This document shows, in pieces, positions 1,201 through 63,390 of a DNA stretch of 64,000 nucleotides. The notes under the pieces were generated by a model, which saw only the letters and a program-made list of their open reading frames with translations, had not been told where the DNA came from and did no database searches. The position numbers were made by a program, and so were the translations under genes. The DNA lies in NCBI RefSeq assembly GCF_963675165.1, contig NC_087386.1, positions 4,718,169 to 4,782,168 of the forward strand, read 5' to 3'. Source of the DNA: Halichondria panicea (taxonomy: Eukaryota > Porifera > Demospongiae > Suberitida > Halichondriidae). How positions within the stretch are numbered: position 1 is the first letter of the stretch; every line of letters starts with the position of its first letter.

Positions 1201-2489
1201 AGTGTATATTTGTAACATTTCATAACGTGCAGACACAGTAAATTGAATTTGCAGTGATTCATATATACCACATGTTTGACCTTCTCTGCACATGTGTGTA
1301 GAACTGGGTGTTATAATCATGTGCAGAAGAGGTCACATGCAGTAGGAATCACTATAGTGTTTTCCAGCAGGGCTGAACTTTTAGTGATTCTTATGGCCTC
1401 AAAATACAGAAAAAGTATACAGCACATGGTGTGTGTGCAAAGGAGGTTGGACTATAGGGTTATTTGCTCAGGTTACCATACAACTTACCTCTGGCTTTAC
1501 TGAGCTTATAATATCTGGCTAGCTGTGTGGATTAGCAAGGGTTAGCAGTAATGTATCTAGCTTGCATAGGAATCTAGTAAAAAGTGTATGCACTGATAAC
1601 AGAATGGAGGGGATTGCTGGGGATCATGCGCAGGTTGGTTAATGACTACTAGTATAAGTAGCCAGAGAGTCACAGAAAGTTTGCCTCCTAGTCTCCAATG
1701 ACTATGAAAAACCAGCTAGAAGTAATCATTAATTGTCAACAAGCTCAGCTAAAAGTAGTAGTACATGGGTATAAATAACCTTCTGGTGTGTGTGTGTGTG
1801 TGTTTGTGTTGAAAGTAGATAAGGTTACCACAAAACACAGCAAATGTGCTTACTCTGCCACATCTTGCTACCACAGACAAGTGCATGGCCCTAGTCTAAC
1901 AGCCACCAGCCATGCTAGCTATTGAGCCACCACCACATGAATCTAATTCCCACCACTTCTGAGAAAGGTAAATTCTAGGAAAGCAGGCAATGAATACACC
2001 CCCCCCCCCCCAAAAGGTGAGCTACAGGGCCAGGGATCCAGCATCAACTAGTGACCCTCCCACTAGAACACATGTACCACCACAGTAACAAAACCTAAAT
2101 GCTAACCCTATAACCCTAGCCCTAACACTGTTGACTGCCTTTCAATGACACCTCATAATTATAGTACGTATATAGGGACAATCAAGAAGCACAGAAATTG
2201 CCTCTGAAACTAGACACTTTCCAGGTCAATTGTAATGAACTGAGGCCACCACTATAAGAGAACTCACAAGTACTCACAACCAACTCCACACCAACAAGAC
2301 CCTCCTGAAAGGACACATCTGCTGAAGCCATAGCTACATCACCTTACCTATATGATATACTTACCTGTACTACAATAACGTTAAACAAGTAGCAAACGAT
2401 AAGCTCTGATCCAGACCATATATTACTTTGATGTACACCTGTGTGTGTGCGTGTGTGATGGGTGTGCTGCTTAATTAACTTTCAACGTA
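1201..2489. other. Non-coding part of block D
   Basis: No supportable gene. It contains a (TG)n run near 1788-1801, a poly-C tract at 1999-2011, and two telomere-like CCCTAA units near 2100-2130, too few to be a telomeric array. All are present in the sister copies with small length changes. Confidence 0.7.
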
Positions 2490-2700
2490 CCGTATAGCGC
2501 GAAATTTTCGCGGATTTCGTGGGTTACCAATCCTACATGAAAATTAAGTCCACGAAAATAGTTCTAATTACCTGTGTTTATTAAAGGCGTGGCTTCCGGT
2601 AAGCAGTCAAGCCCAGTCATTCCGCGAACATTGTGCAACGAAATGCTTTTAGAGGCCAATCCACGAAATATAAGTGCCTCAAAATTTTCGCGCTATACGG
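2490..2700. mobile_element. MITE, CCGTATAGCGCG family, TA target duplication
   Basis: Bounded by TA on both sides, with inverted ends reading CCGTATAGCGCGAAATTTT and the complement. Internal sequence repeats 'cacgaaaat' motifs. Other copies are at 28117-28291, 39343-39556, 48007-48240 and, degenerate, 23657-23760 and 45795-45895. TA duplication and short inverted ends fit a Tc1/mariner-type non-autonomous element. Confidence 0.85.
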
Positions 2701-3461
2701 TATATAGAATGAAGCTAATCTTGGCCGATCTTACACTGGTTGTATGACAAACATACAATCCGACATGTAGCAAGTGCAGCTTAAGCTTAGTTCAAGCAAA
2801 TAATGCCTGGCACAGTTTGTCAAACTACCTGTAAGGGTTAGCTAGATACATCCTTGTTCTATAGTAGGATCAAAAGTCTTACTAGGCATATGAATACATA
2901 TAATGTTTATTGCATAAATACAAAACTACAATAGTAGCATGCTCCAGTGCAACACGTGTATATTTGTGTATATTTGGCCATGCTGGGCAATAACTAAATG
3001 TATACTCACATCATAAATTCATATTCCCACTGGTATAGTCAGTAAGCATTGTGCACACCCTGTGACGCTAAGCAACATATTATCGCTAAGCAACATATCA
3101 CCTACCACATAATTATACTTACTATAATTATGTATTATTACTATAATTATATCAGGTGTCAATTGGTTAGGGTAATTAGCTTGTATGGGTTAGCACATAC
3201 CCAGAGTGTTATAGTACAAGAATCAATATATAGGATCCCTACATATCCAGAGGAGGTATACGACAGGCAATTAGTCTTTGATTGAGCAATAATTATCCAC
3301 CTACGTCGTAATCAAAGGCGTAATCAAAGGCTAATTACTTGAGCTGCACCACGCCTGTCGGACCTCCTCTGCTACATACCTATACAATTAATACACCTAC
3401 CTATACAATACACCAAACCCATCTTCATTACCAAATGCACAATTCTATGTGCACAGCTTCT

Positions 3462-3606
3462 GGGTCTCCAAAGGTGCAAGTACCGTACCAAGTGGTCAGT
3501 GGATGTGTACCCAGGAAACTGGAGATTGAGAGAAGGAAGAGGCAGTACAACAGACAAGCCAAAGAGCTGGAAAATCTCTTGAAGCAGCACCATGTATCCA
3601 CTCAGG
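3462..3606 (+). other. Exon-like insert present only in block D copy 1
   Basis: About 145 bp absent from the otherwise matching sites near 28975 and 38690. One open frame contains VPRKLEIERRKRQYNRQ followed by a helical stretch ending in HHVSTQ, then a consensus donor (CAG then GTAGGT). The charged 'PRKxEIERRKRxY' phrase recalls segments of axonemal dynein heavy chains, but I am not sure of that. No matching upstream exon was recognised. It could be a captured exon fragment or an exon lost from the other two copies. Confidence 0.4.
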
Positions 3607-5226
3607 TAGGTGGGGTATATAGGGGGAGGGAAGGGAGTTACTAAGAATAGAGCAAAATGCTACCTTATTCAAACACCGAGGTGTTCGCTTGCGGTATGTT
3701 TTGTTTTGCTTCACTGCAGCATGTAACACATTATGAATGTTTCACCATTGAGTACACAAGTTATCACAGTGGTATAATATTAGATTTGCGCACTGATAAC
3801 TGAAACCTTGAAGTGGCTGCCATCAAATTACTCAAGCATGGAATTCATTCCAGAGAACCACAATCAAGTTTAACTGGCCTTGGGACTATTAGAGCTATGA
3901 ATTTCACAAGAGAACCACAATCAAGTTTAACTGGCCTTGGGACTATGAATTTCACAACTAAACAAATAACCCAAGGCCATGGCATGTAGGAAGTAACCTC
4001 ACCACATGAAATTTAATTATACCATGGTGTATTATGTTCAAGGCTAAAAAACTTACTTGCATGCATGCATGCACGTTGACCAGCTAGCTACAAAGTTGAA
4101 GGCAGCCTAAATAGACTCTGCATGTGAACTACAAATTAAGCTAGCAAAATTGTATTCATGCGAACTGGCGATGCTGCATGTATATGGGGAAGTATAATTA
4201 GTTTCTTTTCTTAAACCGCTGTGCATATATAATTATTATAGTGCCGCTGACCTAAAACTACAGTATGCTGTTCTCAAAGCTGTGCATGCTGTGGCTTGCA
4301 TTTGTTCAGCAAACTGAATTACAACACCTATACTTATAAATATTTTATTGGCCGTTTTAGGCTTCATCACATATTAACTTGTTCTATACATGCTATAAAT
4401 CACGCGGAGGGATTAGCACTTCAATGCTCTGGCTCTATAGTCTGCCAGTAACTTGTATATATAAGCTCGTCACATTAATTTTACGGGCTCAACAATAGAT
4501 AGTATACAGACTTCTGCCAGGCTATCTTGAAAACTATGGACAGATGTATAAATTTAGTGTATAGATCTACCATGAAGTGATCCAAGTAGATCTATATAGA
4601 TCTATCTCACTTTTACATCACGAATTGGCAGCCACCTACCCACAGCTAGCTGCATGTGGTCAGACTATGAGATATATTCAAGTATAGACTGTATATCCAA
4701 TAACCCTTTTTGGTGTTGTGGGAGTAGAATGGGTAAAGATGCTTGCTGAGAGTTGTGACTTCTGAGCTCTGAATGTGGTAGCCACAAACAAGACAGCACC
4801 ACTATATACACCTATATTAAATCTATAACCTATATAGACATTGGCCATTTCATACAACTGTTACAGCAATCCAATCGTGACATTCAGTCTGCATGTTGAA
4901 CTCATCCATGCATGTACACAGAAGGGGTGCATATAGTGGATGTGATAGTACTGTGTTTGTACCATGGATATATATGTAGCCTCAACACAACAAGATAGTA
5001 GTTTTAAATTTGGCAGATTTTGTTTCATTGTCGAATAAAACCGAGAAAAATCTAAGAAGCTAAAAAGCTCGAACCTGCACGTTGGCCTAAATGTACACGC
5101 GGCTTTGACTCTAGGCTGTATAGACTCACTAAACCTCAAATTAACGTCGAGGGTTTGCACTTCAGTGCTCTAGTCTTTTTAGTGTTTACTCGCTTTTACT
5201 TGATAACAAAGCCTTAATTAACATCA
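3607..5226. other. Non-coding, nothing recognised
   Basis: Block D sequence to about 4942, with a direct repeat of the phrase 'agaaccacaatcaagttt' near 3855 and 3913 and a (CATG)n tract near 4062. From 4943 the sequence is not shared with the other blocks. Open frames are short and lack recognisable motifs. Confidence 0.6.
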
Positions 5227-5400
5227 AAATACTTGCTGTGTGTAAGCTACGATGCTGTAACAGCAGCGCTATGACGTCAAAATTACTTGCTGTGTGTAAG
5301 CTACGATGCTGTAACTGCAGCGCTTATGGCGTACAGGTGAGCAGGCTCAGAAATCACAAGAGACAGACAGACAGACAAACGAACAAACAAACAAACAGAC
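5227..5400. repeat. Two-copy tandem repeat plus tetranucleotide tract
   Basis: A unit of about 53 bp containing TACTTGCTGTGTGTAAGCTA is present twice (5230-5283 and 5284-5330) with few changes, followed by (AGAC)n and (AAAC)n tracts at 5361-5400. Confidence 0.85.
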
Positions 5401-7645: not shown

Positions 7646-7654
7646 GTGCACAAT

Positions 7655-7714
7655 TAGCCTCGATTCCAAGCCGCTGAGAAAGGCGCACTATTCAAGGGGC
7701 TGGAGTCGAGGCTA
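7655..7714. mobile_element. 60-bp MITE, TAGCCTCG family, 9-bp target duplication
   Basis: Ends read TAGCCTCGATTCC and GGAGTCGAGGCTA and are flanked by GTGCACAAT on both sides (7646-7654 and 7715-7723). The same termini and 9-bp duplications occur at 14696-15458 and 15549-17296. Confidence 0.85.
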
Positions 7715-7884: not shown

Positions 7885-7917
7885 AATTGAACATGGATTC
7901 ACACTCCACAAGTCGGC

Positions 7918-21600: not shown

Positions 21601-24600
21601 TGCATTGACTGGTACTATAGCTTAGCTACTTATAATTGTATTTTTCAATGCCACCAACTATATACTCTTGTCTGGCTTCCCAGTGGATTAGCTAGACACA
21701 AGTAACTTTTGCATGGTTAGGAATTTCCTCAGCCTATTATACATAGATAAACTTTTCTCTACGGCCTAAGTCTGTTGAGGACTTTAATTGTGTTGAGTGC
21801 ATGGGGCTGAAGAATGTGTATAATGGTTCAATATTTGCAGTCCCACGTCTACTATATCATCTATATGGTTGTCTGTATAGTAGATATTCTCTGTAGGACA
21901 ATGCCTACAGTTGTTGACAGTCTGTGCTAATATCTTTTTGATTGATTAGCTCGATTACAGCTTGGATCTATAATGAATCTAATCTAGCAGCCGATATACA
22001 TTAGCTTTTAACCACTGGGTAAACTTGTATATACCTTGATTCCAATGGTCAACAAAAAACCTCAGCTATAATCAAGTTTCAGAATACCACCTGTATAGGT
22101 GTACCGCTATCTATTGATTGTGTTCTTATATTCAGTTTGCCACCTGTAGGTGTCTGCTATTGTGTTGTTCTGCCTATATTCAGCTTGCCAACTGCATGTG
22201 TACCATGCAGCTGTTGCCATTAGTGGTGCTACTATATATATATATATATAATTATAGGTGTTGTGCGTTAGGGAAATCTTTAATACTGCATGCATTTATA
22301 ATAATTATATACTCCTGCTTGTAACCTATAATGAGCAGATTCAGAATCACACACGCACACACACACACCATGCAGCCGACTACTGTGACTACTGTAACCC
22401 ATCCGTGGCCGCCCACGTGCCGCCTCGGTTAATTAGCGGTAGATCGTATAGTATATACATGCACACTCCAATAATGCCTACAATGGTGCATGCACCAGGA
22501 ACTGTGTAGTACTATACAGGCGATTGATTGTATGGGTGATTGATCAGCCACCTTAACCCTATACTCCCTATATATGTATTATAGCTGTACATTCTCTGAA
22601 TACTTTAAAAGTGTAGTAACTACAGCCTCTATATGCCTCTATTATATATATAGTTCATCACTGCATGGTCACTGCATGCATGTGATGCTACGTAGTATAG
22701 TTCACATTAAAGTACAGGATGTTTTTGTGTATAACTACGGATAGAACATTGAAAGAATAACAGAATCCTTTACATGTGAGATCAATTTCTAGCGGTACTG
22801 TTCTGAGAATTTGGACATTCCCTCATCGTGTTGGTTTTGTTCAAGTTTAATTGTTGTTCTGCGTATATATAGGGTTCTGTATACTCTTGTAACCTAAATC
22901 AACTTAGTAGTATAGATACATAATTATACATATACCTGCACACTCCAATAATGCCTGAAATGGTGCATGCAGGAACTGTGGTAGCATGCTGCCGCATGTG
23001 CAATAGTATAATAATGACTCCTAATAATTCAATGATTGTTTACTGAACTGAAGTGTTATTTGAAAGTATAAGGACTGCATGATGTGTCTTTAGGTGGGTA
23101 TCAGGAGTTTAGTGGTATAATTATGTATAATTATAGGTAACAAAACTTGGGAGTTAATTAAGTCACAGCTGAGGGAAATTTCGAAATTATAACCGTGGAT
23201 AGGTTAATATAGCGAAGACCGCTTAGGTTACACCGCTTGCATAGCATAACATACGTAGTTGTATAGTATTTTCATTGCCAGCTTAATGCAAACAGATGGA
23301 TGATGTGTTTGGGTATTGTAGACAATGGTTGTCTCCCATATTTACCACATCCATGCATTCATGCTATCTCTGAGTTCATCTCATCTCAATTCATCCAGCT
23401 CCCTAGTACACTATAACCTAGCAACACACATGTACTCTCACGCTTTCAGGACCTTAAAAGGAAAGAGAAGGAAGACATGCGTACGCTAGAGTCTCTGAAG
23501 GACAAGGAGAAAAGGCTAACCATAGAACTAGAGAACAAAATGTGAGTCTAAAACATTAAAATATGATTCCTTACGTATATTTACATTTATTATTTATATG
23601 CAACACAATTCGTAGACCATACACGCATTGGGGAAACTCCTTGCAAATGATGATACCATATATTATAGCGCGAAATTGTCTAAGGCACCGTTAGCTAACA
23701 TTTCATGGAGGATTGCTAACCCACGAAATTAAGCCCCTCCAAAATTTCGCGCTATACGGTAGAACTATATACAACACAAAACAATGTTTGGTAAACATAA
23801 TATATAATATGTCATCATGATTATGTCATCATTCAGGAAGGAATACAAAAGTCGTCCGAACTGCCCCAGCTCTTCTGGGACGGTTCTTACCTCAGTCCCT
23901 CAAGTCCCTCCTCCTGTATCTTTCTTTCCCCCTCCCAACTCTGGTTCGTGGTTTCCAGCTCTGCCAGGCAATAACATACCAAGGCCTATAGGTGAGTTCT
24001 GTATAATTATACTACTATAAGTCTGGCTTCGTCCCAAAAGCTTAGATTCTAAACTTCTCATACTGATTCAATATTCTGAAATAGGTTGACAACTGAGCTG
24101 CATGCATGTAAACAGTATAGTGTTACATCTGGAGATGGGTCATGGCTTCTTGGGATGCTAGCTGTAATGTGCTGAACCAGAAAACCCCTACATATGTTCA
24201 CCATGCATGGAGCATGTGTGCTTTAGGGTGGATAACTGATCGTTATCAAATGCATATGTTGTTAATTGCCGCTATAATTGAATTTTGAGTAGTGGAAGGG
24301 TGGCTAACCACTGTAACCACGGGTACACACCCTGCATGAATCTTGCATGAATCTTGCGTATATATATAGTGATTCCGGTAATTTTTTGGCATGCATAAAA
24401 AATGTATGCAAAGTATGATCATTATAATTATTGGTGTTCATATCACCTCGATCAGAAACGTCATATTGTACTTTTATCTTATCTTCGTACAGAAATACCG
24501 GCAGTCTCACATATAAACTCTCCACCAGTAATCTTCTCCCCATGGCCCAGCGATTGCCGCTTCGGAGTACCTGCTTACTTTCCCCCTCCGATTTCGCAAT

Positions 24601-26860: not shown

Positions 26861-26897
26861 TGAACTTGTAGTGATTCGTTGTAGTGATTCGTAGCAG

Positions 26898-27215
26898 TGT
26901 CCGAACCTCCTCTGGGTGTAGTTCAGTGTATATTAGTTCAGTGTCCGAACCTCCTCTGGGTGTAGTTCAGTGTATATTAGTTCAGTGTCCGAACCTCCTC
27001 TGGGTGCATGTAGTTCAGTGTATATTAGTTCAGTGTCCGAACCTCCTCTGCATGGGTGTAGTTCAGTGTATATTAGTTCAGTGTCCGAACCTCCTCTGGG
27101 TGTAGTTCAGTGTATATTAGTTCAGTGTCCGAACCTCCTCTGGGTGTAGTTCAGTGTATATTAGTTCAGTGTCCGAACCTCCTCTGGGTGTAGTTCAGTA
27201 TATATTTGAGTTCAG
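26898..27215. repeat. Minisatellite, 7 units
   Basis: Same unit as 771-1200. Two units carry a 4-bp CATG insertion (near 27007 and 27051) that no unit of the other arrays has. Confidence 0.95.
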
Positions 27216-28116
27216 TGTATATTTGTAACATTTCATAACGTGCAGACACAGTAAATTGAATTTGCAGTGATTCATATATACCACATGTTTGACCTTCTCT
27301 GTACATGTGTGTAGTAGAACTGGGTGTTATAATCATGTGCAGAAGAGGTCACATGCAGTAGGAATCACTATAGTGTTTTCCAGCAACTTTAATGCCAGGG
27401 CTGAACTTTTAGTGATTCTTATGGCCTCAAAGGTTACCACAAAACACAGCAAATGTGCTTACTCTGCCACATCTTGCTACCACAGACAAGTGCATGGCCC
27501 CAGTCTAACAGCCACCAGCCATGCTAGCTATTGAGCCACCACATGAATCTAATTCCCATCACTTCTGAGAAAGGTGAATTCTAGAAAAGCCTGCAATGAA
27601 TACACCCCCCCCCCCCAAAGGTGAGCTACATGGCAGTAAGGGCCAGGGATCCAGCATCAACTAGTGACCCTCCCACTAGTACACATGCATGTACCACCAC
27701 AGTAACAAAACCTAAATGCTAACCCTATAACCCTAACCCTAACATTGTGGACTGCCTTTCAATGACACCTCATAATTATAGTACGTATATAGGGATAATC
27801 AATTGCAAGAAGCACAGAAATTACCTCTGAAACTAGACACTTTCCAGGTCAATTGTAATGAACTGAGGCCACCACTATAAGAGAACTCACAAGAACTCAC
27901 AACCAACTGCACACCAACAAGACCCTCCTGAAAGGACACATCTGCTGAAGCCATAGCTACCTTACCTTACCTATAATTATGATATACTTACCTGTACCAC
28001 AATAACGTTAAACAAGTAGCAAATGATAAGCTCTGATCCAGACTATATATTACCTTGATGTATACCTGTGTGTGTGCGTGTGTGATGGGTGTGCTGCTTA
28101 ATTAACTTTCAACGTA

Positions 28117-34500: not shown

Positions 34501-35498
34501 TCATTCGACATCTTTGATGCCTTCACTTTCAGTGACGAGTGCTCTCTCCAGGATGACTCTCCCTTCCTGAAAGAGATAACTTGGTAACGCACCTATCAAT
34601 GTGTTTTCCCACTACTCCCCCTACCCCCCAGGAGGGGTAGGGCTAATATGGGGTGGGTCAAACTCCCTATGGTTGGGGAGATTCTGTCTTCCAATTCCCC
34701 CTGGTCAACATGGGTTGCACATGTATGCAAGGCAAAGTCAAATCCCCTAAGTACGGGGCTAAAAATGTCAGAGTCAAGGGGGAGGGATCGAGTAGTGGGG
34801 AAACACATTGATAGGTGCATGCATCACTAACAAATTACTACTGGAAATGCGTAGTAAAAATGACACCCACCTTATATTTCTGTGAGTCTTCCGTTGCGAA
34901 CTCCTGAGTACATTGCACAACAATACAATAATTACATCACGATTCTTACAACTGATACATGTTACTCGAACTCGACCCATGACAAAACCGCACCTACATT
35001 ACATTATGTACTGTAGGATTTTCACTTACGTAGATCCACCCAAGTCTTGTAGTACAGTTTTTACACGATACATCTCTGACAATAATTATGTCTACCAGTC
35101 AGCTGCAAAGAAAGAAAACAACACTTACAATTATTAGCTGTAATTTTCATATACTATACTAACCATTATCCTGTTTTCTACTTCACTGAAGAGAAGGTTA
35201 ACGCTGTAAGAAATGAATTTCATGGTCGTCACTGCACTACAGAGGGTTTACACGTACACACAAGTCTATACTATTTCTTACACTCTGTTGAATAGAAATG
35301 CCCGTCCTGTGGCTCCAGTGAATCTCTGTAACAATCAAGAACACGTAATGGTATGTGCTGACTCACTAAAAGTCTGATATGACTGACACTCACCGTTGAG
35401 ACTAGTTCAGAGCGGTTACGGTTGGTTAGGGCTGTGTCACAGTTGGTGCATGAATATACTCTGGTTCCGCCAGGGTTATCAATAAAAATTCTCCCCAT
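34501..35498 (-). CDS. YPEL5: Yippee-like 5 homologue, six exons, +4 frameshift in exon 4
   Basis: Exons (minus strand): 35394-35498, 35282-35325, 35164-35203, 35030-35102, 34871-34903, 34501-34566. All boundaries are GT-AG with consistent phases. Without the shift they give 118 aa, near the 121 of vertebrate YPEL5. Start [20 protein letters not shown]; then [47 protein letters not shown] and [11 protein letters not shown]. The two CxxC pairs (CTNC, CKNC) form the Yippee zinc site. Residues NR are doubled after LTNR compared with vertebrates. In exon 4 the bases AATT are inserted after the codon for H of LTGRH, moving the second CxxC out of frame. Family role: small zinc-binding protein, linked in mammals to the CTLH ubiquitin-ligase complex. 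It may be a pseudogene, a polymorphic null or a sequencing error. Confidence 0.85.
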
Positions 35499-36875: not shown

Positions 36876-39342
36876 GTGTGGTTACTGTACACTATAAATC
36901 TCCTCAATATCGTGTGTAGCATCGTCCGTCTGCACAATCAACTTATGAGTTTGCTTTGCTGCTTGTTAGCTGCAAAGCTGTACAGCCATACAAGCTGCAG
37001 CCATTAATTTGTAGTGAATTCCATGGTGTGAATTCTGAGCTCTTTGCAGATCGATGCCTTTTATTGCCATACTATATGCACCCCTTCTGTGTACATGCAT
37101 GGATGAGTTCAACATGCAGACTGAATGTCACGATTGGATTGCTGTAACAGTTGTATGAAATGGCCAATGTCTATAGGTTATAGATTTAATATAGGTGTAT
37201 ATAGTGGTGCTGTCTTGTTTGTGGCTACCACATTCAGAGCTCAGAAGTCACAACTCTCAGCAAGCATCTTTACCCATTCTACTCCCACAACAACAAAAAG
37301 GGTTATTGGATACAGTCTACTTGAATATATCCATAGTCTGACCACATGCAGCTAGCTGTGAGGTGGCTGCTAATTCGTTGTGTAAAAGTGAGTTAGATCT
37401 ATATAGATCTACTTGGATCACTTCATGGTAGATCTATACACTAAATTTATATCTGTCCATAGTTTTCAAGATAGCCTGGCAGAAGTCTGTATAGTATCTA
37501 TTGTTGAGCCCGTAAAATTAATGTGACGAGCTTATATACAAGTTACTGGCAGACTATAGAGCCAGAGCATGCATTGAAGTGCTAATCCCTCCGCGTGATT
37601 TATAGCATGTATAGAACAAGTTAATATGTGAAGAATATTTATAAGTATAGGTGTTGTAATTCAGTTTGCTGAACAAATGCAAGCCGCAGCATGCACAGCT
37701 TTGAGAACAGCATACTGTAGTTTTAGGTCAAGCACTATAATAATTATATATGCACAGCAGTTTAAGAAAAGAAACTAATTATACTTCCCCATACAGCATC
37801 GCCAGTTCGCATGAATACAATTTTGCTAGCTTAATTTGTAGTTCACATGCAGAGTCTATTTAGGCTGCCTTCAACTTTGTAGCTAGCTGGTGAACGTGCA
37901 TGCATGCATGCAAGTAAGTTTTTTAGCCTTGAACATTATACACTGTGGTAAAATAAATTTCATGTGGTGAGGTTACTTCCTACATGCCATGCGCCTGGGT
38001 TATTTGTTTAGTTGTGAAATTCATAGTCCCAAGGCCAGTTAAACTTGATTGTGGTTCTCTTGTGAAATTCATAGCTCTAATAGTCCCAAGGCCAGTTAAA
38101 CTTGATTGTGGTTCTCTGGAATGAATTCCATGCTTGAGTAATAATTATGATGGCAGCCACTTCAGGGTTTCAGTTATCAGTGCGCAAATCTAATATTATA
38201 CCACTGTGGTAACTTGTATACTCAATGGTGAAACATTCATAATGTGTTACATGCAGTGAACTATTTTATTTGGTTCCCATAGTGTTACATGCACACATGC
38301 AGTTGACTATTTATTAGTTCCCATTACTGTAATACAAGCCATATACGCTTTGTGCCAATTTTTTTGTTTACCAGCTTGTAAGGGTCATTAGGGCCAGTAG
38401 GATAAACAATCCATGTGTCGTATAGCAGGTAATTTTCGAAGGACTAAATTATGTTTATAGCATTTCACCATTAAACAGTGGCCCCACTTTTGTTATATAA
38501 CATATAACCATGAATTTTCATATGTTCTCCATCAGACTTCTGTTTCCATTAAGCTCTTCCATAGCACTTAGAGCAAAACAAAACATACCGCAAGCGAACA
38601 CCTCGGTGTTTGAATAAGGTAGCATTTTGCTCTATTCTTAGTAACTCCCTTCCCTACCCCTATAACCCCACCTTCCTCAGAAGCTGTGCACATAGAATTG
38701 TGCATTTGGTAATGAAGATGGGTTTGGTGTATTGTATAGGTATGTAGCAGAGGAGGTCCGACAGGTGGATAATTAGAGCAATAAAAGACTAATTACCTGT
38801 CGTATACCTCCTCTGGATATGTAGGGATCCTATATTGATTCTTGTACTATAACACTCTGGGTATGTGCTAACCCATGCATGCAACCTAATTACCCTAACC
38901 AATTGACACCTGATATAATTATAGTATGTGGTAGGTGATATGTTGCTTAAGGATAGTAATTATGTTGCTTAGCATCACAGGGTGTGCACAATGCTTACTG
39001 ACTATACCAGTGGGAATATGAATTTATGATGTGAGTATACTATTAGTTATTGCCCAGCATGGCCAAATATACACAAATATACACGTGTTGCACTGGAGCA
39101 TGCTACTATTGTAGTTTTGTATTTATGCAATAAACATTATATGTATTCATATGCCTAGTAAGACTTTTGATCCTACTATAGAACAAGGATGTATCTAGCT
39201 AATCCTTACAGGTAGTTTAACAAACTGTGCTAGGCATTATTTGCTTGAACTAAGCTGCACTTGCTACGTGTCGGATTGTATGTTTGTCAGTATGACTATA
39301 CAACCAGTGTAAGATCGGCCAAGATTAGCTTCATTCTATATA

Positions 39343-44079: not shown

Positions 44080-47000
44080 TTAATTATAAGCGGTCAATAG
44101 TTCACTTTCTTCATCACTGGTCTCAGAGTCACTAGTGCTAGTTTTTCTTCTCTTTCGCATGATCTTTTTCAAAGAAGATATCCTATTGTAGTGAGGATTT
44201 TTGCAGTACTGTACTGTGACGAGCTCGGAATTGTGAATCTGAGAAAACTTTGAGGCTTTCATATGTGCTCTCAATTCTATTTTCGACTTTTCACCTTGCA
44301 TGGATTTCTGTATTATTCCTAGTTCACTGTCGCTGTCAATCCGTAATAAAGGTGGCATCGTTTTTTGCACACGTTGAGCTTTGTTGTGGTTGGTATACGT
44401 GGACATTGTGATTGGCTGATGCAGTGATGGAGGTGGATGAACAATATTGAAAGTTAGAGGCGAGTCATGGGGAAAGCTCTCTTGCTCCTGACAAAGAATT
44501 GTATTGCGACCTGTCAGTGTTGCAGGCTTCCTCGTTGAATCAGCTGAATTAGTGTAATGAAGTACACTGGAAGATCTGCATTCTGTATCAGCTGATTCTC
44601 CTCCGTTTTTTGAACTGGTATTGTTGTGTGAGTAAGACTCTCTGCTGTCTTCGGCTTCAAACAAATCGCTCTCCGTAAAACATGTTCTCTCTCTCTCTAG
44701 AGGAACCTCTGATTGTGAATATTCTCTAGCGTAAGCAGGTGACTGAGGATAGGCCTGTGTTCTTGGAGATACAATCGTGACCATTCGATGCGATTCGTCA
44801 GCTTGTGGTAGTTGTTGAGGGACCATTCCTTGCATCATAGGGAAGCTATTGTGTACAGTGAATGTGGGATGGGAAGGTGTGAGGGGCATGGAGAGTGAGG
44901 TTGGTCGAAGGGGGTACTGGAACATCAAGGGAGTAAATCTTGAGTTTCTGAAAGGAAAAGGAGATTGCGAAATCGGAGGGGGAAAGTAAGTGGGTACTCC
45001 GAAGCGGCAATGGCTGGGCCATGGGGAGAATATAACTGGTGGAGAGTTTATATGTGAGACTGCCGGTATTTCTGTACAAAAATAAGATAAAAGTACAATA
45101 TGACGTTTCTGATCGAGGTGATATGAACACCAATAATTATAATGATCATACCTCGCAATAATGATCATACTTTGCACACATTTTTTATGCATGCCAAAAA
45201 ATTACGGGAATCACTATAATATAATATATGCACGGTTCATGCAGGGTGTGTACCCGTGGTTACGGTGGTTAGCCACCCTTCCACTACTTAAAATTCAATT
45301 ATAGCGGCAATTAACAACATATGCATTTGATAACGATCAGTCATCCACCCTAAAGCACACATGCTCCATGCATGGTGAACATATGTAGGGGTTTTCTGGT
45401 TCAGCGCATTACAGCTAGCATCCCAAGAAGCCATGACCCATTGTAACACTATACTGTTTGCATGCATGCAGCTCATTTGTCAACCCTTTTGCATGAATCA
45501 GTATGAGAAGTTTAGAATCTAAGCTTTTGGGACGAAGCCAGACTTATAGTAGTATAATTATACAGAACTCACCTATAGGCCTTGGTATGTTATTGCCTGG
45601 CACAGCTGGAAACCACGAACCAGAGATGGGAGGGGGAAAGAAGGATCCAGGAGGAGGAACTTGAGGGACTGAGGTAAGAACCGTCCCAGAAGAGCTGGGG
45701 CGACTTTTGTATTCCTTCCTGAATGATGACATAATCATGATGACATATTATATGTTTACCAAACTTTGTTTTGTGTTGTATATATATAGTTCTACCATAT
45801 AGCGCGATATTTTCGAGGGGCTTAATTTCGTGGGTTAGCAATCCTCCATGAAATGTTAGCTAACGGTGCCTTAGACAATTTTGCGCTCTAATATAATTAT
45901 GGTATCATCATTTGCAAGGAGTTTCCCCAATGCATGTAAGGTCTACGAATTGTGTTGCATATAATTAATAAATGTAAATATACGTAGAAATCGTATTTTA
46001 ATGTTTTAGACTCACATTTTGTTCTCTAGTTCTATGGTTAGCCTTTTCTCCTTGTCCTTCAGAGACTCCAGCGTACGCATGTCTTCCTTCTCTTTCTTTT
46101 TAAGGTCCTGAAAGCGTGAGAGTACATGTGTTGCTAGGTTATAGTGTACTAGGGAGATGGATGAATTGAGATGAGATGAACTCAGAGATAGCATGAATGC
46201 ATGGATGTGGTAAATATGGGAGACAACCATTGTCCACAAAACCCAAACACATCATCCATCTGTTTGCATTAAGCTGGCAATGAAATGCTATGCAACTACG
46301 TATGTTATGCTATGCAAGCAGTGTAACCTAGGCGGTCTTCGCTATATTAACCTATCCGCGTTGTGAAAGGAACAAGTAATCTTTATGCACACTAATTGTT
46401 TTAGTAAAAACATTTTGATGTTTGTACGTACTATTTAATTAATTATACTATAAGTAGCATCGCATAATCAAGATTTGGTGCCTGGAGTCCGAGTTTTAAA
46501 GTCATACATGGATCCGACATAACTGAAATTTCCCTCAGCTGTGACTTAATTAACTTCAAGTTTGTTACATACATATACCACTAAACTCCTGATACCACCT
46601 AAAGACACATCATGCAGTCCTTATACTTTCAAATAACACTTCAGTTCAGTAAACAATCATTGAATTATTAGGAGTCATTATTATACTATTGCACATGCGC
46701 AGCATGCTACCGCAGTTCCTGCATGCACCATTTCAGGCATTATTGGAGTGTGCATGTATATATATAATTATGTATCTATACTACTAAGTTGATTTAGGTT
46801 ACAAGAGTATACAGAACCATACATACCAGAACAACAATTAAAGTTGAACAAAACCAACACGATGAGGGAATGTCCAACTTCTCAGAACAGTACCGCTAGA
46901 AATTGATCTCACATGTAAAGGATTCTGTTATTCTTTCAATGTTCTATCCGTAGTTATACACAAAAACATCCTGTACTTTAATGTGAACTATACTACGTAG

Positions 47001-50000
47001 CATCACATGCATGCAGTGACCATGCAGTGATGAACTATAATAGAGGCATATAGAGGCTGTAGTTGATACACTGTTAAAGTATTAAGAGAATGTACAGCTA
47101 TAATACATATTATAGGGAGTATAGGGTTAAGGTGGCTGATCAATCACCCATACAATCAATCGCCTGTATAGTACTACACAGTTCCTGGTGCATGCACCAT
47201 TGTAGGCATTATTGGAGTGTGCATGTATATACTATATGATCTACCACTAATTAACCGAGGCAGCATGTGGCTGCCCACCGGTGGGTTACAGTAGTCACAG
47301 TAGTCGGCTGGTGTGTGTGTGTGTGATTCTGAATCTGCTCATTATAGGTTACAAGCAGGAATATATAAGTATTAAAGATTTCCCTAACGCACAACACCTA
47401 TAATTATATATATAGTAGCACCACTAATGGCAACAGCTGCATGGGACACATGCAGTTGGCAAGCTGAATATAGGCAGAACAACACAACAGCCATATAGGC
47501 AGAACAACACAATAGCAGACACCTACAGGTGGCAAACTAAATATAGGAACACATAGCGGTACACCTTTAAAGGTGGTATTCTGAATAAAATACGATTGAA
47601 CTTAATTGATTATAGCTGAGGTTTTTTATTGACCATTGGAATCAAGGTATATACGAGTTTACCCAGTGGTTAAAAGCTAATGTAGCGGCTGCTAGATTAG
47701 ATTCATTATAGATCCAAGCTGTAATCGAACTAATCAATCAAAAAGCTATTAGCACAGACTGTCAACAACTGTAGGCATTGTCCTACAGAGAATATCTATT
47801 ACACAGACAACCATATAGATGATATAGTAGACGTGGGACTGCAAATATTGAACCATTATACACATTCTTCAGCCCCCATGCACTCAACAGACTTAGGCCA
47901 TAGAGAAACGTTTATCTATGTATAATAGGCTGAGGAAATTTCCTAACCAAAAGCAATTTACTTGTGTCTAGCTAATCCACTATAGGAAGCCAGACAAGAG
48001 TATATACCGTATAGCGCGAAATTTTCGAGGCACTTATATTTCGTGGATTAGCCTCTAAAAGCCATTTCGTTGCACAATGTTCGCGGAATGACTGCTTACC
48101 GGAAGCCACGCCTTTAAATATTTGCATGATAGCAGGTAATTCTAATTAAAGAACAATTTTCGTAGACTTAATTTTCGTGTAGAATTCTAACCCACGAAAT
48201 CTGCGAAAATTAAGCCCCTCGAAAATTTCGCGCTATACGGTAGTTGGTAGCATTCGGAAATACAATTATAAGTAGCTAAGCTATAGTACCAGTCAATGGC
48301 ATAATTACATCAATTAGACACCAATATAAAGCATTCTATGTATATAGATAGCAACCGTACAGTAGATCAATTTGATGGCATTGGTTTCTTGTTTGTTTAA
48401 GGCTGTACATGTATATATATAAGATGAAATTTGCCTATACCACCTGATTTCATTTATTTAGTATTTACTACTAAGTTGATTTAGGTTACAAGAGTATACA
48501 GAACCATATATACCAGAACAACAATTAAATTTGAAAAAAACCAACACGACGAGGGAATGTCCAACTTCTCAGAACAGTACCGCTAGAAATTGATCTCACA
48601 TGTAAAGGATTCTGTTATTCTTTCAATGTTCTATCCGTAGTTATACACAAAAACATCCTGTACTTTAATGTGAACTATACTACGTAGCATCACATGCATG
48701 CAGTGACCATGCAGTGATGAACTATAATAGAGGCATATAGAGGCTGTAGTTGATACACTGTTAAAGTATTAAGAGAATGTACAGCTATAATACATATATA
48801 GGGAGCATAGGGTTAAGGTGGCTGATCAATCACCCATACAATCAATTGCCTGTATAGTACTACACAGTTCCTGCGTGCATGCACCATTGTAGGCATTATT
48901 GGAGTGTGCATGCATGTATATATTATATTATATGTATCTACAGCTATTAACCGAGGCGGCACGTGGGCGGCCACGGGTGGGTGGGTTACAGTAGTCACAG
49001 TAGTCGGCTGGTGTGTGTGTGTGTGTGTGTGTGATTCTGAATCTGCTCATTATAGGTTACAAGCAGGAGTATATAAGTATTAAAGATTTCCCTAACGCAC
49101 AACACCTATAATTATATATATATATATATATAGTAGCACCACTAATGGCAACAGCTGCATGGGACACCTACAGGTGGCAAACTGAATATAGGCAGAACAA
49201 CACAACAGCAGACACCTATACAGGTGGCAAACTAAATATAGGAACACAACCAATAGATAGCGGTACACCTATAAAGGTGGTGTTCTGAATACAATACGAT
49301 TAAACTTGATTATAGCTGAGGTTTTTTGTTGACCATTGGAATCAAGGTATATACGAGTTTACCCAGTGGTTAAAAGCTAATGAACGGCTGCTAGATTAGA
49401 TTCATTATAGATCCAAGCTGTAATGGAATCAAGGTATATACAAGTTTACCCAGTGGTTAAAAGCTAATGTAGCGGCTGCTAGATTAGATTCATTATAGAT
49501 CCAAGCTGTAATCGAACTAATCAATCAAAAAGCTATTAGCACAGACTGTCAACAACTGTAGGCATTGTCCTACAGAGAATATCTACTATACAGACAACCA
49601 TAGAGATGATATAGTAGACGTGGGACTGCAAATATTGAACCATTATACACATTCTTCAGCCCCATGCACTCAACACAATTAAAGTCCTCAACAGACTTAG
49701 GCCATAGAGAAACGTTTATCTATGTATAATAGGCTAAGGAAATTTCCTAACCAAAAGTAATTTACTTGTGTCTAGCTAATTCACTATAGGAAGCCAGACA
49801 AGAGTATATAGTTGGTGGCATTCGGAAAATACAATTATAAGTAGCTAAGCTATAGTACCAGTCAATGCATAATTACATCAATTAGACACCAATATAAAGC
49901 ATTCTATGTATTTAGTGCTGATCACATGATCTCCAGCCAATCAGCTTATCTGAAATTGGTCAGGTGACCATGGATCAAATAACTTAATCCACACTTAAGT

Positions 50001-53000
50001 GTGCTTTAAGTTGTTAAGTGTGGATTAAGTTGGTTTGTTAATACACACTTTTTATCAAACAATCATAATACAAGCAGATTGAATCTGAATGTCATCATAA
50101 TTAATACAAGCAGATTGAATATGTACACAAGCAAAGCTGAAAAGTATTAGAAAGTTGAATGTTATTGTTTCGACTTGTTTCATGTGTACCGAATTGCTGA
50201 CTTCACCATAGCATCGCTTTTTCGTCTGGAGAAATAGGCTCAGCTTGCTTCGAAGATGTACATACCTGTACCTAAGCCAGATCCATATAATCGTTTCATC
50301 AAAGGTGCTTCGAATATCATAGCTTTCCAAAAGAGCAAACCAGATACTCATTGCCATATAGTTTGCGCACAAAGTTTCCCATCCAGTAGGCCAGATCAGC
50401 TGGAGGCATATCCAGTAGTATAGTGGGATCGGGACTGTTGGTCAGCAGGAGAAATAAGTCGAGAACATGCCCAGTCAGTCCAGATAGCTTTAGATCGTAT
50501 CTCCTTCTCCTTTGCATCAGTTACTGGATCTACAAACCTACTAAAACTTGCTATTACGTCTAGCTAGCTAGCTAGCCACCAGCAACTGTAGCTAAATCTA
50601 GCTGCCACGAGGCTAGAGCTCACGTGACAGCACTAGAACACACCTAGCCAAGTGACGTGTTTTAATGCTGGTGCACTCGGATGGCCTCTTGGTTACGTAA
50701 TGCACTCGGCTGCGCCTCGAGCACCACGTTAACCTCGAGGCCATCCTCGGCACGCAGATTAAAACACTTAATCTTGGCTAGGTGTGTTCTAAATAATACA
50801 TAGATAGCAACCATACAGTAGATCAATTTGATGGCATTGGTTTCTTGTTTGTTTAAGGCTCGTACATGTATATATATAAGATAAAAATTTACCTATACCA
50901 CCTGATTTTATTTATAGAACAGTTACAGAGAATCCTTATACATTGTCTGGATAATTAGCTTAGGGAAGGGTATATCAGCAGCTCAACCACATTACCTTCC
51001 TAGACTCGCAAGCCACTCCCTTTTCTCTGATTGGACGGGGGCGGGAGAAAAGGGACTGGTGACTCTGGGCTACAGCTTGTGTAAATCAGGAATGCTATTA
51101 AATATATATATATATATAATATATATTAAATATTAATGTCACGTGCAAATTATCCAATTTATTCTGATGTGTCAAAAGCTAAAGACACACAGAAGACAAG
51201 TATACAGATCTATCTAGCCAGTCTTTTGATTTTATAGATCCTTGTACCAGTGTCTGTTGTGCCACAACTTGTGGATTAGCATGGAACAGCTGATGAACGT
51301 AGAAATCTTGGTAGTCCTTCTTTGAACCGAGGAGTGGCAGCGATTTAAGACAGCTTGTACAAGTCTGACTACTCTCAATTCAACTGCTGCCGTCTGCCAT
51401 TATCTGTCTTGTATTGTACAGGTTATTAAAAGCTTTAGGCAACCAATGACTTTCGGCTGCCAGTTCTCATCACGTAAAACTAAAACAAGCTAATCTCTGC
51501 TGGTGTCTTAGATGACTATATCCTAGCTGAATGCCTGATGATGTTATTACTCCATCATCTTCTCTTTTCTAGCACTAGCATCCATTCTTAAACTGTAGCT
51601 AAGAAGCCCGCGATCACTTTTGCAGGCTACGCAATTCTACATAACCTCACGCAATTTTTGGATCACGTGGAAAAATCAATGAATAATCTCTACCCAAATT
51701 CTGGTAGAGACACAAAATGTGTCCCAGAGTCACCAGTCCCTTTTCTCCCGCCCCCGTCCAATCAGAGAAAAGGGAGTGGCTTGCGAGTCTAATTACCTTC
51801 CTTGTTTGAGAACATGATGAACACGGACAGATACAAGTTTCTGGTTTTAGGTTTGTAACTGGCAAGGATGGAAACCCTGTGAATTAAATGATTTTTATTG
51901 ACCAAGGTGTACATAATTAAGTGGGGGGAATTGTGGCGGCTGTTTTCTGGTAAAGAATTAGCAAATAATGGTAACACTGGTAAGCACTATATTATACTTA
52001 AAGAATTAGTTCCTGGACCTCAAAACTAGGCCCAGAAAGCATGGCTGCGTGATACTCTATGTGGTATTTAACTCGGCACGCCATGGGAAGCTGCCAATCA
52101 ACTAATTGCTCCTGCATACCTCCACTGGGAAGCTGGCTTTATCATTATGGCTAGCTTAACCATTACCACAGTCGGGTGATAAGTACAGTCATGCATGCAG
52201 ACTGAGCTACACGTCAAGAGTAGAAGTGAGGACCAGTGTGTTGGTTGAAACTTTGAACTGGGTAACATGTAGCACTCACATACAAACCATTGTGTGTATG
52301 TGAGTATACAGGGTGAAATTATGAGGGAAAGAAACGAATGTGCATTCTTCAACAGAGCAAAGCAAAAAACAAAACAGATAAGGAACACTCAATTAGAGAT
52401 GCCTGAATGCTAAATCTAATTTTTAGAGATTTGGGGAGGGCAGCATATTCAATAGTGGAAAACATGAAATTACATTAGCATAACCAAAATACTCCTATAA
52501 GAATGATTATACCATTATAATTCATAAGGGAAACATCAGCCAGTTATTTTTAACGACTACACCCTCTTCACTTTCAGGTACAGAGCCACACGAAAAGGTT
52601 ACGGCAGAAGCATAATTATTTGTTTTACCAATTGTCACACTTTCAATATACAATCCTCTATATCTAAGTCTGTGCATGCCCTACTTGAAAACGGCATTCT
52701 ATTTTATATGCAGGACCTTGATCTGCATGCATGCTCTCTACTGTTACTCACTTTCAGTTCTTTAATAGCTGCTTCCAGTACCAATTTGACGGCAGGTCGC
52801 TTGGTGGGTCTAGTTAACTGATTCCGAAGACTAAGTACAGCAACTCGTAGCTCCTTCCTCCTGTATATAATCAGTGCAAAAACTTTTTAGTGATAATAGT
52901 TAGTACCCCCTCCCCTATAATTATGTATAATATTATTATACATGTATTTGGTAAATTTGTGGTTTAATGATAATCATGTTATACATAGTATATCCCATTG

Positions 53001-56930: not shown

Positions 56931-57564
56931 ATGACTGCTGAGGATTCTCCTGCTGATGACAGGGTGTGTCTAATACTACAGGCAGCTCAAGACCTGGAGA
57001 GTCCTAATCCTGATGCAGTTGCAGGCAACAATCTAACTGCAGGCACTAGTAGAGCAGTGAGCTCAGTGAAGAGGAAAAATGGTTGCAGCAGCCAAGAAAG
57101 AGGGGCAGAAATCGATAAGGGTGGAACCAGCATGCTGGCCACTTTTCATCATGAGGAAATCTCAGGTACATATATATTATGCTGATTATATTGCAGCAAG
57201 CAATATATAGATGTGTTGTATACCATTATGTGGTAAATCTTGATCACTAAATTAAATGAGCTTGGGATTAGGTAGTAGTATTTTGTGGTAGGGAACAAAG
57301 TGTCCAACATGGCTGCATGCATGCATGCCCAATTATATTTATCAGTCTCAGATGGGGGTCCTGTTATTGCTTAGAGAAGATGAGATGTATGCCTCAAATC
57401 CCGACTATTTTGATCCCTTAAATCAATGCAGGCATGCATGCATGTCAATAGTGGGTTTCTAAAGGTAATAGTCTATCTGTATAGCTAATGCAAATCACAT
57501 CCATTGTCTCTTGCATGCGCACGCATACATGCATGCACACACGCACACACACACACACGCACGC

Positions 57565-57609
<45 letters not shown>

Positions 57610-59246: not shown

Positions 59247-60019
59247 GTGAGTAACAGTATAGAGCATGCATGCAGATTGAGGTTTTCTGTATATAAAATA
59301 GAATGCCGTTTTCAAGTAGGGCATGCACAGACTTAGATAGAGGGTTGAATATTGAAGTGTGACAATTTATAAAACAAATATGCTTCTGCCGTAACCTTTT
59401 CGTGTGGCTCTGTACCTGAAAGTGAAGAGGGTGTAGTCGTTAAAAATAACTGGCTGATGTTTCCCTTATGAATTATAATGGTATAATCATTCTTATAGGC
59501 GTATTTTGGTTATGCTAATGTAATTTCATGTTTTCCACTATTGAATATGCTGCCCTCCCCAAATCTCTAAAAATTATATTTTAACATTCAGGCATCTCTA
59601 ATTGAGTGTTCCTTATCTGTTTTGTTTTTTTGCTTTGCTCTGTTGCCGACATTGCCCTCCTATACAATAATAGGTCTATGCATGCACATTCCTTTCTTTT
59701 CCTCATAATTTCACCCTGTATATAGGCCTCATACACACAATGGTTTTGTATGTGAGTGCTACGTTGTAGTCACATGGCAGACCAACAGGTGCTATAATTT
59801 TTTTGAGAGGTGGCCTTCATAATTGGAAAAACTGAGGAGCTAGCTATAGATAATCATGTTACCCAGTTCAAAGTTTCAACCAACACACTGGTCCTCACTT
59901 CTACTCTTGACGTGTAGTTCAGTGTTAACCTCAGTCTGCATGCATGACTGTACTTATCACCCGACTGCGGTAATGGTTAAGCTAGCCATAATGATAAAGC
60001 AGCTTCCCAGTGGAGGTAT

Positions 60020-60338
60020 GCAGGAGCAATTAGTTGATTGGCAGCTTCCCATGGCGTGCCGAGTTAAATACCACATAGAGTATCACGTAGCCATGCTTTC
60101 TGGGCCTAGTTTTGAGGTCCAGGAACTAATTCTGTAAGTATAATATAGTGCTTACCAGTGTTACCATTATTTGCTAATTCTTTACCAGAAAACAGCCGCC
60201 ACAATTCCCCCCACTTAATTATGTACACCTTGGTCAATAAAAATCATTTAATTCACAGGGTTTCCATCCTTGCCAGTTACAAACCTAAAACCAGAAACTT
60301 GTATCTGTCTGTGTTCATCATGTTCTCAAACAAGGAAG
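60020..60338 (+). other. Unassigned exon-like pair inside intron 3, copy C
   Basis: Orthologue of 21060-21372; pieces end at 60133 and span 60259-60338. Only a Leu/Pro change from copy A. Confidence 0.3.
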
Positions 60339-60417
60339 GTAATGTGGTTGAGCTGCTGATATACCCTTCCCTAAGCTAATTATCCAGACAATGTATAAGG
60401 ATTCTTTGTAACTGTTC

Positions 60418-61232
60418 TATAAATAAAATCAGGTTGTATAGGCAAATTTCATCTTAAATATATGCATGTACGAGCCTTAAACAAACAAGAAACCAATGCC
60501 ATCAAATTGATCTACTGTATGGTTGCTATCTATATACATAGAATGCTTTATATTGGTGTCTAATTGATGTAATTATACATTGACTGGTACTATAGCTTAG
60601 CTACTTATAATTGTATTTTCCGAATGCCAACAACTATATACTCTTGTCTGGCTTCCTATAGTGGATTAGCTAGACACAAGTAACTTTTGCATGGTTAGGA
60701 ATTTCCTCAGCCTATTATACATAGATAAACGTTTCTCTATGGCCTAAGTCTGTTGAGGACTTTAATTGTGTTGAGTGCATGGGGCTGAAGAATGTGTATA
60801 ATGGTTCAATATTTGCAGTCCCACGTCTACTATATCATCTCTATGGTTGTCTGTATAATAGATATTCTCTGTAGGACAATGCCTACAGTTGTTGACAGTC
60901 TGTGCTAATATCTTTTTGATTGATTAGTTCGATTACAGCTTGGATCTATAATGAATCTAATCTAGCAGCCGATATACATTAGCTTTTAACCACTGGGTAA
61001 ACTTGTATATACCTTGATTCCAATGGTCAACAAAAAACCTTAGCTATAATCAAGTTTCAGAATACCACCTGTATAGGTGTACCGCTATCTATTGATTGTG
61101 TTCTTATATTCAGTTTGCCACCTGTAGGTGTCTGCTATTGTGTTGTTCTGCCTATACGGCTGTTGTGTTGTTCTGCCTATATTCAGCTTGCCAACTGCAT
61201 GTGTACCATGCAGCTGTTGCCATTAGTGGTGC

Positions 61233-61267
<35 letters not shown>

Positions 61268-61359
61268 TGTTGTGCGTTAGGGAAATCTTTAATACTGCAT
61301 GCATTTATAATAATTATATACTCCTTCTTGTAACCTATAATGAGCAGATTCAGAATCAC

Positions 61360-61416
<57 letters not shown>

Positions 61417-63390
61417 ATGCAGCCGACTACTGTCACTACTGTAACCCATCCGTGGCCGCCCACGTGCCGCCTCGGTTAATTAGCGGTAGATCATATAATA
61501 TATACATGCACACTCCAATAATGCCTACAATGGTGCATGCACGCAGGAACTGTGTAGTACTATACAGGCGATTGATTGTATGGGTGATTGATCAGCCACC
61601 TTAACCCTATACTCCCTATATATGTATTATAGCTGTACATTCTCTGAATACTTTAAAAGTGTAGCAACTACAGCCTCTATATGCCTCTATTATAGTTCAT
61701 CACTGCATGGTCACTGCATGCATGTGATGCTACGTAGTATAGTTCACATTAAAGTACAGGATGTTTTTGTGTATAACTACGGATAGAACATTGAAAGAAT
61801 AACAGAATCCTTTACATGTGAGATCAATTTCTAGCGATACTGTTCTGAGAAGTTGGACATTCCCTCATCGTGTTGGTTTTTTTCAAGTTTAATTGTTGTT
61901 CTGGTATGTATGGTTCTGTATACTCTTGTAAAACCTAGTAGTAAATACTAAATAAATGAAATCAGGTGGTATAGGCAAATTTCATCTTATATATATACAT
62001 GTACAAGCCTTAAACAAACAAGAAACAAATGCCATCAAATTGATCTACTGTACGGTTGCTATCTATATACATAGAATGCTTTATATTGGTGTCTAATTGA
62101 TGTAATTATGCATTGACTGGTACTATAGCTTAGCTACTTATAATTGTATTTCCGAATGCCACGACTATATACTCTTGTCTGGCTTCCTATAGTGGATTAG
62201 CTAGACACAAGTAAATTACTTTTGGTTAGGAAATTTCCTTAGCCTATTATACATAGATAAACGTTTCTCTATGGCCTAAGTCTGTTGAGTGCATGGGGGC
62301 TGAAGAATGTGTATAATGGTTCAATATTTTGCAGTCCCACGTCTACTATATCATCTCTATGGTTGTCTGTATAATAGATATTCTCTGTAGGACAATGCCT
62401 ACAGTTGTTGACAGTCTGTGCTAATAGCTTTTTGATTGATTAGTTCGATTACAGCTTGGATCTATAATGAATCTAATCTAGCAGCCGCTACATTAGCTTT
62501 TAACCACTGGGTAAACTCGTATATACCTTGATTCCAATGGTCAATAAAAAAACCTCAGCTATAATCAAGTTCAATCGTATTTTATTCAGCATACCACCTT
62601 TATAGGTGTACCGCTATGTGTTCCTATATTTAGTTTGCCACCTGTAGGTGTCTGCTATTGTGTTGTTCTGCCTATACGGCTGTTGTGTTGTTCTGCCTAT
62701 ATTCAGCTTGCCAACTGCATGTGTCCCATGCAGCTGTTGCCATTAGTGGTGCTACTATATATATAATTATAGGTGTTGTGCGTTAGGGAAATCTTTAATA
62801 CTTATATACTCCTGCTTGTAACCTATAATGAGCAGATTCAGAATCACACACACACACACACACACCAGCCGACTACTGTGACTACTGTAACCCACCCACC
62901 CGTGGCCGCCCACACGCCGCCTCGGTTAATAGCGGTAGATACATATAATATATACATGCATGCACACTCTAATAATGCCTACAATGGTGCATGCACGCAG
63001 GAACTGTGTAGTACTATACAGGCGATTGATTGTATGGGTGATTGATCAGCCACCTTAACCCTATACTCCCTATAATATGTATTTTAGCTGTACATTCTCT
63101 GAATACTTTAAAAGTGTAGTAACTACAGCCTCTATATGCCTTTATTATAGTTCGTCACTGCATGCATGTGATGCTACGTAGTATAGTTCACATTAAAGTA
63201 CAGGATGTTTTTGTGTATAACTACGGATAGAACATTGAAAGAATAACAGAATTCTTTACATGTGAGATCAATTTCTAGCGGTACTGTTCTGAGAAGTTGG
63301 ACATTCCCTCATCGTGTTCAACTTTAATTGTTGTTCTGGTATGTATGGTTCTGTATACTCTTGTACAACTTAATAGTATAGATACATAAT
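60418..63390. repeat. Tandem duplication within intron 3, copy C
   Basis: Two units of about 1.5 kb (60418-61945, 61946-63390), each containing the phrases CAGCTGTTGCCATTAGTGGT, an (AT)n and a (CA)n tract. (CA)n is long in the first unit (61360-61414) and short in the second (62845-62863). Confidence 0.85.

Follow-up and report, generated by a model that had tools for sequence, protein, structure and literature searches.

Duplicated copies of DNA in the sponge Halichondria panicea differ repeatedly by insertions of exactly four base pairs that are self-complementary (palindromic) and that have two base pairs in common with the site they enter. We describe these insertions in a 64,000-nucleotide stretch of contig NC_087386.1 (RefSeq assembly GCF_963675165.1, forward strand, positions 4,718,169 to 4,782,168; hereafter the window), which corresponds to C10:4718169-4782168 in a genome of 131,455,214 bases and 39 contigs. 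An earlier sequence-only reading of the window had claimed that many insertions or deletions (indels) between sister copies are exactly 4 bp and palindromic, the inserts being AATT and CATG, and had suggested a specific mutational process. We conclude with high confidence that a specific process inserting 4-bp palindromes exists. This follows from a peak in indel length, an excess of palindromes, the polarity of the events, alignment-free traps in repeats on eight contigs, and the match between the contexts of insertion and the words in excess. The pattern is broader than had been noted, as AATT and CATG both occur but many other self-complementary tetramers are inserted too.

Copies were compared within the window and 200 kb of contiguous neighbouring sequence (260 kb), and with 12 kb of contig C1 added (272 kb); they therefore come almost wholly from one 260-kb region, and the genome-wide evidence consists of the traps and a count of the word ATAATTAT and its reverse. 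Local duplicates are abundant in the window, with 59 self-matches of at least 200 bp. A strict filter (8 identical flanking bases; alignments of at least 200 bp and at least 80% identity) was used for the 260 kb and a looser one for the 272 kb. Unique indels were collapsed on 4 flanking bases, so that an occasional double count is possible, and p-values assume independent events. The strict filter gave 381 unique indels (73 of 1 bp, 67 of 2 bp, 25 of 3 bp, 53 of 4 bp, 7 of 5 bp, 17 of 6 bp, 15 of 7 bp, 19 of 8 bp and 33 of 9 bp), and among the non-tandem ones 39 were of 4 bp, against 13 of 3 bp and 3 of 5 bp. With the looser filter there were 520, including 70 of 4 bp, 34 of 3 bp and 9 of 5 bp. 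Of those 70, 18 are tandem and 52 are not, the latter lacking the full copy of an adjacent unit that slippage would leave.

A palindromic 4-mer, in any equivalent placement, is present in 36 of the 52 non-tandem 4-bp indels, when random 4-base deletions in the same DNA are palindromic in 9.2% of cases (p = 1.1e-25). Had the original claim been wrong, the excess would have been expected to vanish with the removal of tandem slippage, and it persists. Where exactly 2 bases are shared with the flank, 30 of 32 non-tandem 4-bp events are palindromic (null 16%), and where fewer than 2 are shared, 0 of 9. Comparisons confined to the window (7 of 10 non-tandem 4-bp indels palindromic) and comparisons wholly outside it (18 of 25) give similar pictures. 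Counting any self-complementary unit and including tandem events, 48 of the 70 4-bp indels qualify against a null of 12%; they derive from 21 distinct locus pairs, and 12 of the 48 are tandem. At other lengths, non-tandem indels of 2 bp (4/18, p = 0.64) and 8 bp (0/18) have no palindrome excess.

The rule is thus a self-complementary 4-mer having 2 bp in common with its target, and it is wider than AATT and CATG: the tetramers seen are AATT, CATG/TGCA, TTAA, TATA/ATAT, ACGT/GTAC, GATC/TCGA, GGCC/CCGG and AGCT/CTAG. The filled words are TAATTA (12), CATGCA with its tandem forms (18), AATTAA-type (6), TATATA-type (8), ACGT/GTAC (2), TCGATC (1) and GGCCGG-type (1), and 22 events are non-palindromic. 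Palindromic events can be written as XY-rc(XY)-XY, where rc is the reverse complement, except the 12 TA-AT-TA events and one TA-GC-TA caught in a trap. In the change from TA to TA-AT-TA the context is A-TA-T in 12 of 12 cases and the product is ATAATTAT; targets besides TA are CA, TT, TC, AC, GG and AG. The sites in the window, to which no strand is assigned, are as follows.

2350..2353: empty target ATAT (short allele), with its filled counterpart at 27973..27980
27973..27980: ATAATTAT, AATT inserted in ATAT; 2 long and 3 short copies, polarity ambiguous
27005..27010: TGCATG, from TG, in a unit of a 44-bp tandem array; 2 long versus 18 short (20 aligned)
27049..27054: second TGCATG from TG, in the next array unit; 2 long versus 18 short (20 aligned)
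22371..22374: TGCA, CA to CATGCA; 2 long, 1 short, with deletion in the other copy possible
47602..47605: TTAA/AATT insertion, TT to TTAATT; 1 long, 2 short, 4 other
52615..52618: AATT-type insertion, GCATATTTG to GCATAATTATTTG; 1 long, 3 short, 1 other
45894..45897: long allele (AATT-type) corresponding to the site at 23661
37568..37571: ATGC/GCAT next to a copy already present, placeable in several equivalent ways; tandem class, with 1 long versus 4 short
46428..46431: GTAC beside GTAC, tandem palindromic; 1 long versus 2 short
59937..59940: TGCATG extended by TGCA, tandem class; 2 long versus 2 short
27688..27691: CATG extended by a further CATG, tandem class; 1 long versus 3 short, 1 other
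35082..35089: ATAATTAT, roughly 0.1-0.2 kb away from YPEL-like exon fragments; a neighbouring copy (L012) is without AATT

The individual examples given by the sequence-only reading fare unevenly. The pair 2347/27972 (ATAT at 2350-2353 against ATAATTAT at 27973-27980) and the two TG to TGCATG changes at 27007 and 27051 are clean non-tandem events. The pair 2885/28480 is real, but its adjoining bases also differ, for which reason the clean filter dropped it. The pair 61255/22247, at the margin of a TA microsatellite, is a weaker example, as are 2070/27685, 4425/37567 and 20976/59938, where slippage is possible because a partial CATG or ATGC tract was extended. An example placed in a YPEL5 exon was not confirmed: the ATAATTAT at 35082 lies near split exon fragments whose motif looks YPEL-like, and was not shown to be exonic. 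The array of 44-bp units is common to two duplicated blocks, at 770-1205 and 26895-27218 of the window.

Polarity was assigned by taking the minority state as derived wherever at least 3 copies exist; copies are few, and local gene conversion may blur the assignment. On this basis the palindromic 4-bp events comprise 16 insertions, 6 deletions and 10 ambiguous cases, a further 16 having two copies only. The non-palindromic 4-bp events comprise 2 insertions and 5 deletions when non-tandem, and 4 insertions and 0 deletions when tandem. Single-copy 2-bp duplications are AT-type in 30 of 40 cases (by eye mostly TA to TATA), and the AT-type ones are 16 insertions versus 3 deletions. A second peak in the length spectrum stands at 9 bp (43 unique indels in the 272 kb, 0 tandem, versus 23 of 8 bp and 20 of 10 bp), with 27 deletions and 5 insertions, and because its polarity is opposite the two peaks seem to be shaped by different processes. 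The target duplication of the Mutator-like element (MULE)-like insertions found here is also 9 bp; the labels MULE-like, miniature inverted-repeat transposable element (MITE)-like and Tc1/mariner-like are given here from inverted-repeat ends and target duplications and not from a transposase.

Evidence that requires no alignment, by which an alignment artefact is rejected, comes from traps, each consisting of two fixed anchors around NNNN at one site of a high-copy repeat and searched for across the genome. Four such traps together caught 8 copies, of which 8 are palindromic. Five were caught by CACGAAAT-NNNN-ATAAGTG in a MITE-like repeat (AATT three times, AGCT and ATAT), one by CGAACA-NNNN-TTGTGCAACG (TTAA) and two in a MULE-like terminal repeat (TGCA, and GCTA, which is AGCT or CTAG in other placements). 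The remaining one of the four, at AAAGGCGTG/GCTTCC, caught no copy. A further trap, outside the four, caught a single copy, already present in the catch of the first. The eight copies are spread over contigs C1, C3, C5, C7, C9, C12, C13 and C16, which rejects a peculiarity local to the window. At the first trap site, allowing 1-14 bp of extra sequence between the intact anchors gave 15 insertions in all (three of 1 bp, six of 2 bp, one of 3 bp, five of 4 bp and none longer), beside 698 copies with the exact empty 15-mer; such copies without insert, together with polarity, disfavour deletion from abundant motifs. A wider 3-5 bp trap caught 11 copies, with 3-bp inserts in six, 4-bp inserts in five and 5-bp inserts in none, the 4-bp inserts being TGCA, TTAA (the same as in the CGAACA trap), the non-palindromic GTAT and two messy ones. 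The three AATT copies look independent because they have few changes in common: L067 shares no listed change with L070 and L071, which share 44T>C, although L070 was aligned to the consensus over 62 bases only, making its independence less secure. The AGCT copy (L068) carries a second 4-bp palindromic insertion, in the GCAT form.

2503..2706, forward strand: MITE-like repeat, source of the fixed-site traps, with copies genome-wide

This repeat has TACCGTATAGCGCG ends, sits at TA with TATA flanks and has 1473 first-look candidates in the genome. It was probably active recently; among 37 aligned copies (the window's and 36 others, chosen as best matches), 23 have 98-100% identity to the consensus. 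These 37, a set too young to inform, contain no 4-bp palindromic insertion and one 4-bp ATTT.

The same rule is imprinted on word composition. Genome-wide, ATAATTAT occurs 100,191 times and its reverse TATTAATA 5,899 times, an excess of about 94,000 if the reverse word is taken as expectation. In the 272 kb ATAATTAT stands at 18 times an order-2 model, other flanked TAATTA words at 0.8-3.5 times, and against an order-1 model it reaches 16.9 times while AATTAATT, at 1.3 times, is near expectation. Among hexamers with an expectation of at least 5, the median observed/expected ratio (O/E) is 2.14 for XY-rc(XY)-XY (12 words) and 2.15 for palindromic XYZWXY (15 words), against 1.10 for other XYZWXY (228), 1.05 for other palindromic hexamers (48) and 0.95 for the rest (3,792). 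By these medians, being palindromic or having the 4-bp spacing is not enough by itself for a class to be enriched, and the combination made by insertion is enriched. With longer repeats removed, isolated TAATTA (4.9x), TGCATG (2.7x), TATATA (2.2x), TCGATC (2.0x) and TTAATT (1.6x) are in excess; insert types that are frequent leave a clear mark on the words, and for some rare types it is faint or missing. The sequence-only reading held that the process explains the abundant octamers, and this is supported for some share of the excess; part of the TGCATGCA/CATGCATG abundance is tandem extension of existing units. That reading put forward no mechanism.

As a mechanism we tentatively favour end joining at breaks with a 2-nt stagger, through short self-complementary tails, over transposon footprints and zigzag template switching. 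What the process leaves at a dinucleotide XY is XY-ZW-XY, with XY doubled around a 2-bp filler and the inserted 4-mer self-complementary; ZW is usually rc(XY), as in CA to CATGCA, TT to TTAATT, AG to AGCTAG and TC to TCGATC, and at A-TA-T it is mostly AT. The process may begin with a double-strand break, most often at pyrimidine-purine steps (TA, CA/TG), whose stagger would be filled in on both sides, duplicating XY. Each 3' end might then gain a 2-nt extension copying its own end, much as when a hairpin is opened off centre. With XY on both flanks, the 2-nt palindromic tails could pair with each other, and their annealing would turn CA into CATGCA. At the self-complementary TA the tails could anneal fully and give TATA, AT-type being the commonest single-copy 2-bp duplication. 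ATAATTAT would need an extra assumption, either one untemplated A per 3' end or another source such as a TA transposase, and a TA-directed transposase is also a candidate cutter at TA sites. Artemis opens hairpins at V(D)J coding joints. The P nucleotides of such joints are short inverted copies of the DNA end, of one to three base pairs (PMC3528771), and in this, and in being palindromic at the joint, they resemble the tails proposed here. Unlike them, the present events are genome-wide and symmetric, duplicate XY on both sides and join no segment.

Several observations weigh against this account. No break, hairpin or enzyme was observed, and AT filler at ATAT, as well as the GC filler at TA of one trapped copy, fall outside the palindromic-tail rule, while XY-AT-XY at TG, TT and GT are non-palindromic exceptions. 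Six palindromic events are deletions and ten are ambiguous, by a polarity drawn from few copies. Non-tandem 6-bp indels are palindromic in 4 of 17 cases (p = 0.003), and with tandem events included self-complementary units exceed the null at 2 bp (54/89), 6 bp (7/22) and 8 bp (5/23), which is at least partly slippage of AT and ATGC repeats; 4 bp is therefore the main, not the sole, size. In word composition, GCCGGC (O/E 0.29) is an exception within palindromic XYZWXY, and isolated CTAGCT (1.18), GTACGT (1.04) and ATATAT (0.53) show little or no excess. Finally, the 6-bp event CAA to CAATTGCAA, of the form S-rc(S)-S, is fitted equally well by template switching.

An unlikely alternative, in our estimate, is that the inserts are excision footprints of Tc1/mariner-like elements, whose 2-bp TA target duplication would leave TA-TA, TA-N-TA or TA-NN-TA. 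Such footprints, as described in PMC7913693, likewise pair a duplicated TA with a small number of additional bases at an ATAT-type target: ZB prefers ATATATAT targets with a central TA and leaves footprints of 0-3 bp, with 2-4 bp cited for the group. The AATT events, the class to which this comparison applies, have the AT-rich palindromic target expected (ATAT in 12 of 12, with a matching flank profile); AT-type sequences predominate among 2-bp duplications, and the MITE-like family has many near-identical copies at TA with TATA flanks. However, many events lie off TA, at CA, TT, TC, AC, GG and AG, where no TA is duplicated, and CA to CATGCA, TT to TTAATT and AG to AGCTAG stay unexplained because the filler varies with and mirrors the target, not an element end. 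The 260 kb yielded no donor: neither 33 large insertions nor 60 of 266 TA-flanked inverted-repeat candidates included a clear TA element with A...T ends, and the CC...GG ends of the MITE-like repeat would not yield AT filler. An excess of some 94,000 ATAATTAT would also imply an enormous number of excisions. Rather improbable is zigzag template switching in replication, in which a strand jump, 2 nt copied backwards and a jump back would give S-rc(S)-S; short-range switching of the kind treated in PMC7954356 could make this form, although the derivation is our own. It fits XY-rc(XY)-XY and the 6-bp CAA event exactly, and the palindromes among non-tandem 6-bp indels agree with it, but it predicts a range of sizes when 4 bp dominates and non-tandem 2- and 8-bp indels have no excess, and it cannot produce AATT in ATAT (TA to TAATTA is not locally templated) or AGCT at TA.

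Ordinary slippage on self-complementary tetranucleotide repeats is very improbable as the explanation and is contradicted as a full account. It may contribute to the tandem palindromic events (12 of 48), since ATGC and TA arrays are common, and the 2- and 8-bp self-complementary excess appears only once tandem events are counted; yet most events begin from a half unit, the non-tandem class alone gives p = 1e-25, and AATTAATT is at 1.3 times expectation where ATAATTAT is at 16.9. We give equally little credence to selection for the octamers as binding sites or chromatin elements, with the insertions as surviving variants. The octamers are hugely abundant and show a weak symmetric flank preference, but many different palindromes obey the rule, also in transposon-like copies without evident shared function.

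A formal parallel to the word excess is HIP1 (highly iterated palindrome) of cyanobacteria, which like ATAATTAT is a palindromic octamer far above expectation. Its gain is modelled in PMC4390886 through point mutations that methylation-linked mismatch repair biases; in the present case, by contrast, octamers are created by insertion, and in a eukaryote. Among the titles and abstract openings returned by searches of the open literature, none describes such insertions, which does not prove their absence from print. The chances seem to us about even that this is a previously undescribed germline process in an animal genome, placing self-complementary tetramers at flexible pyrimidine-purine steps, responsible for about 94,000 extra ATAATTAT in one genome and forming an insertion-driven counterpart of HIP-like word inflation.

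In well-studied genomes most short insertions repeat the adjoining sequence in tandem. Here one narrow non-tandem class rivals slippage, with a simple rule and a measurable imprint on the words of a whole genome. Confirmation in new mutations would implicate germline repair or transposase activity and account for the unusual octamer composition, and it would caution against taking every enriched palindrome for a regulatory site.

No tRNA was found in the window, and a Pfam search of six of its open reading frames gave zero matches. Three ATAATTAT words lie inside 42 bp at 3109-3150. The words TACATGTA (106 occurrences) and TAGATCTA (42), at 7-9 times the order-2 model, have the form TA, palindromic tetramer, TA, and may represent a 6-bp relative of this insertion process.

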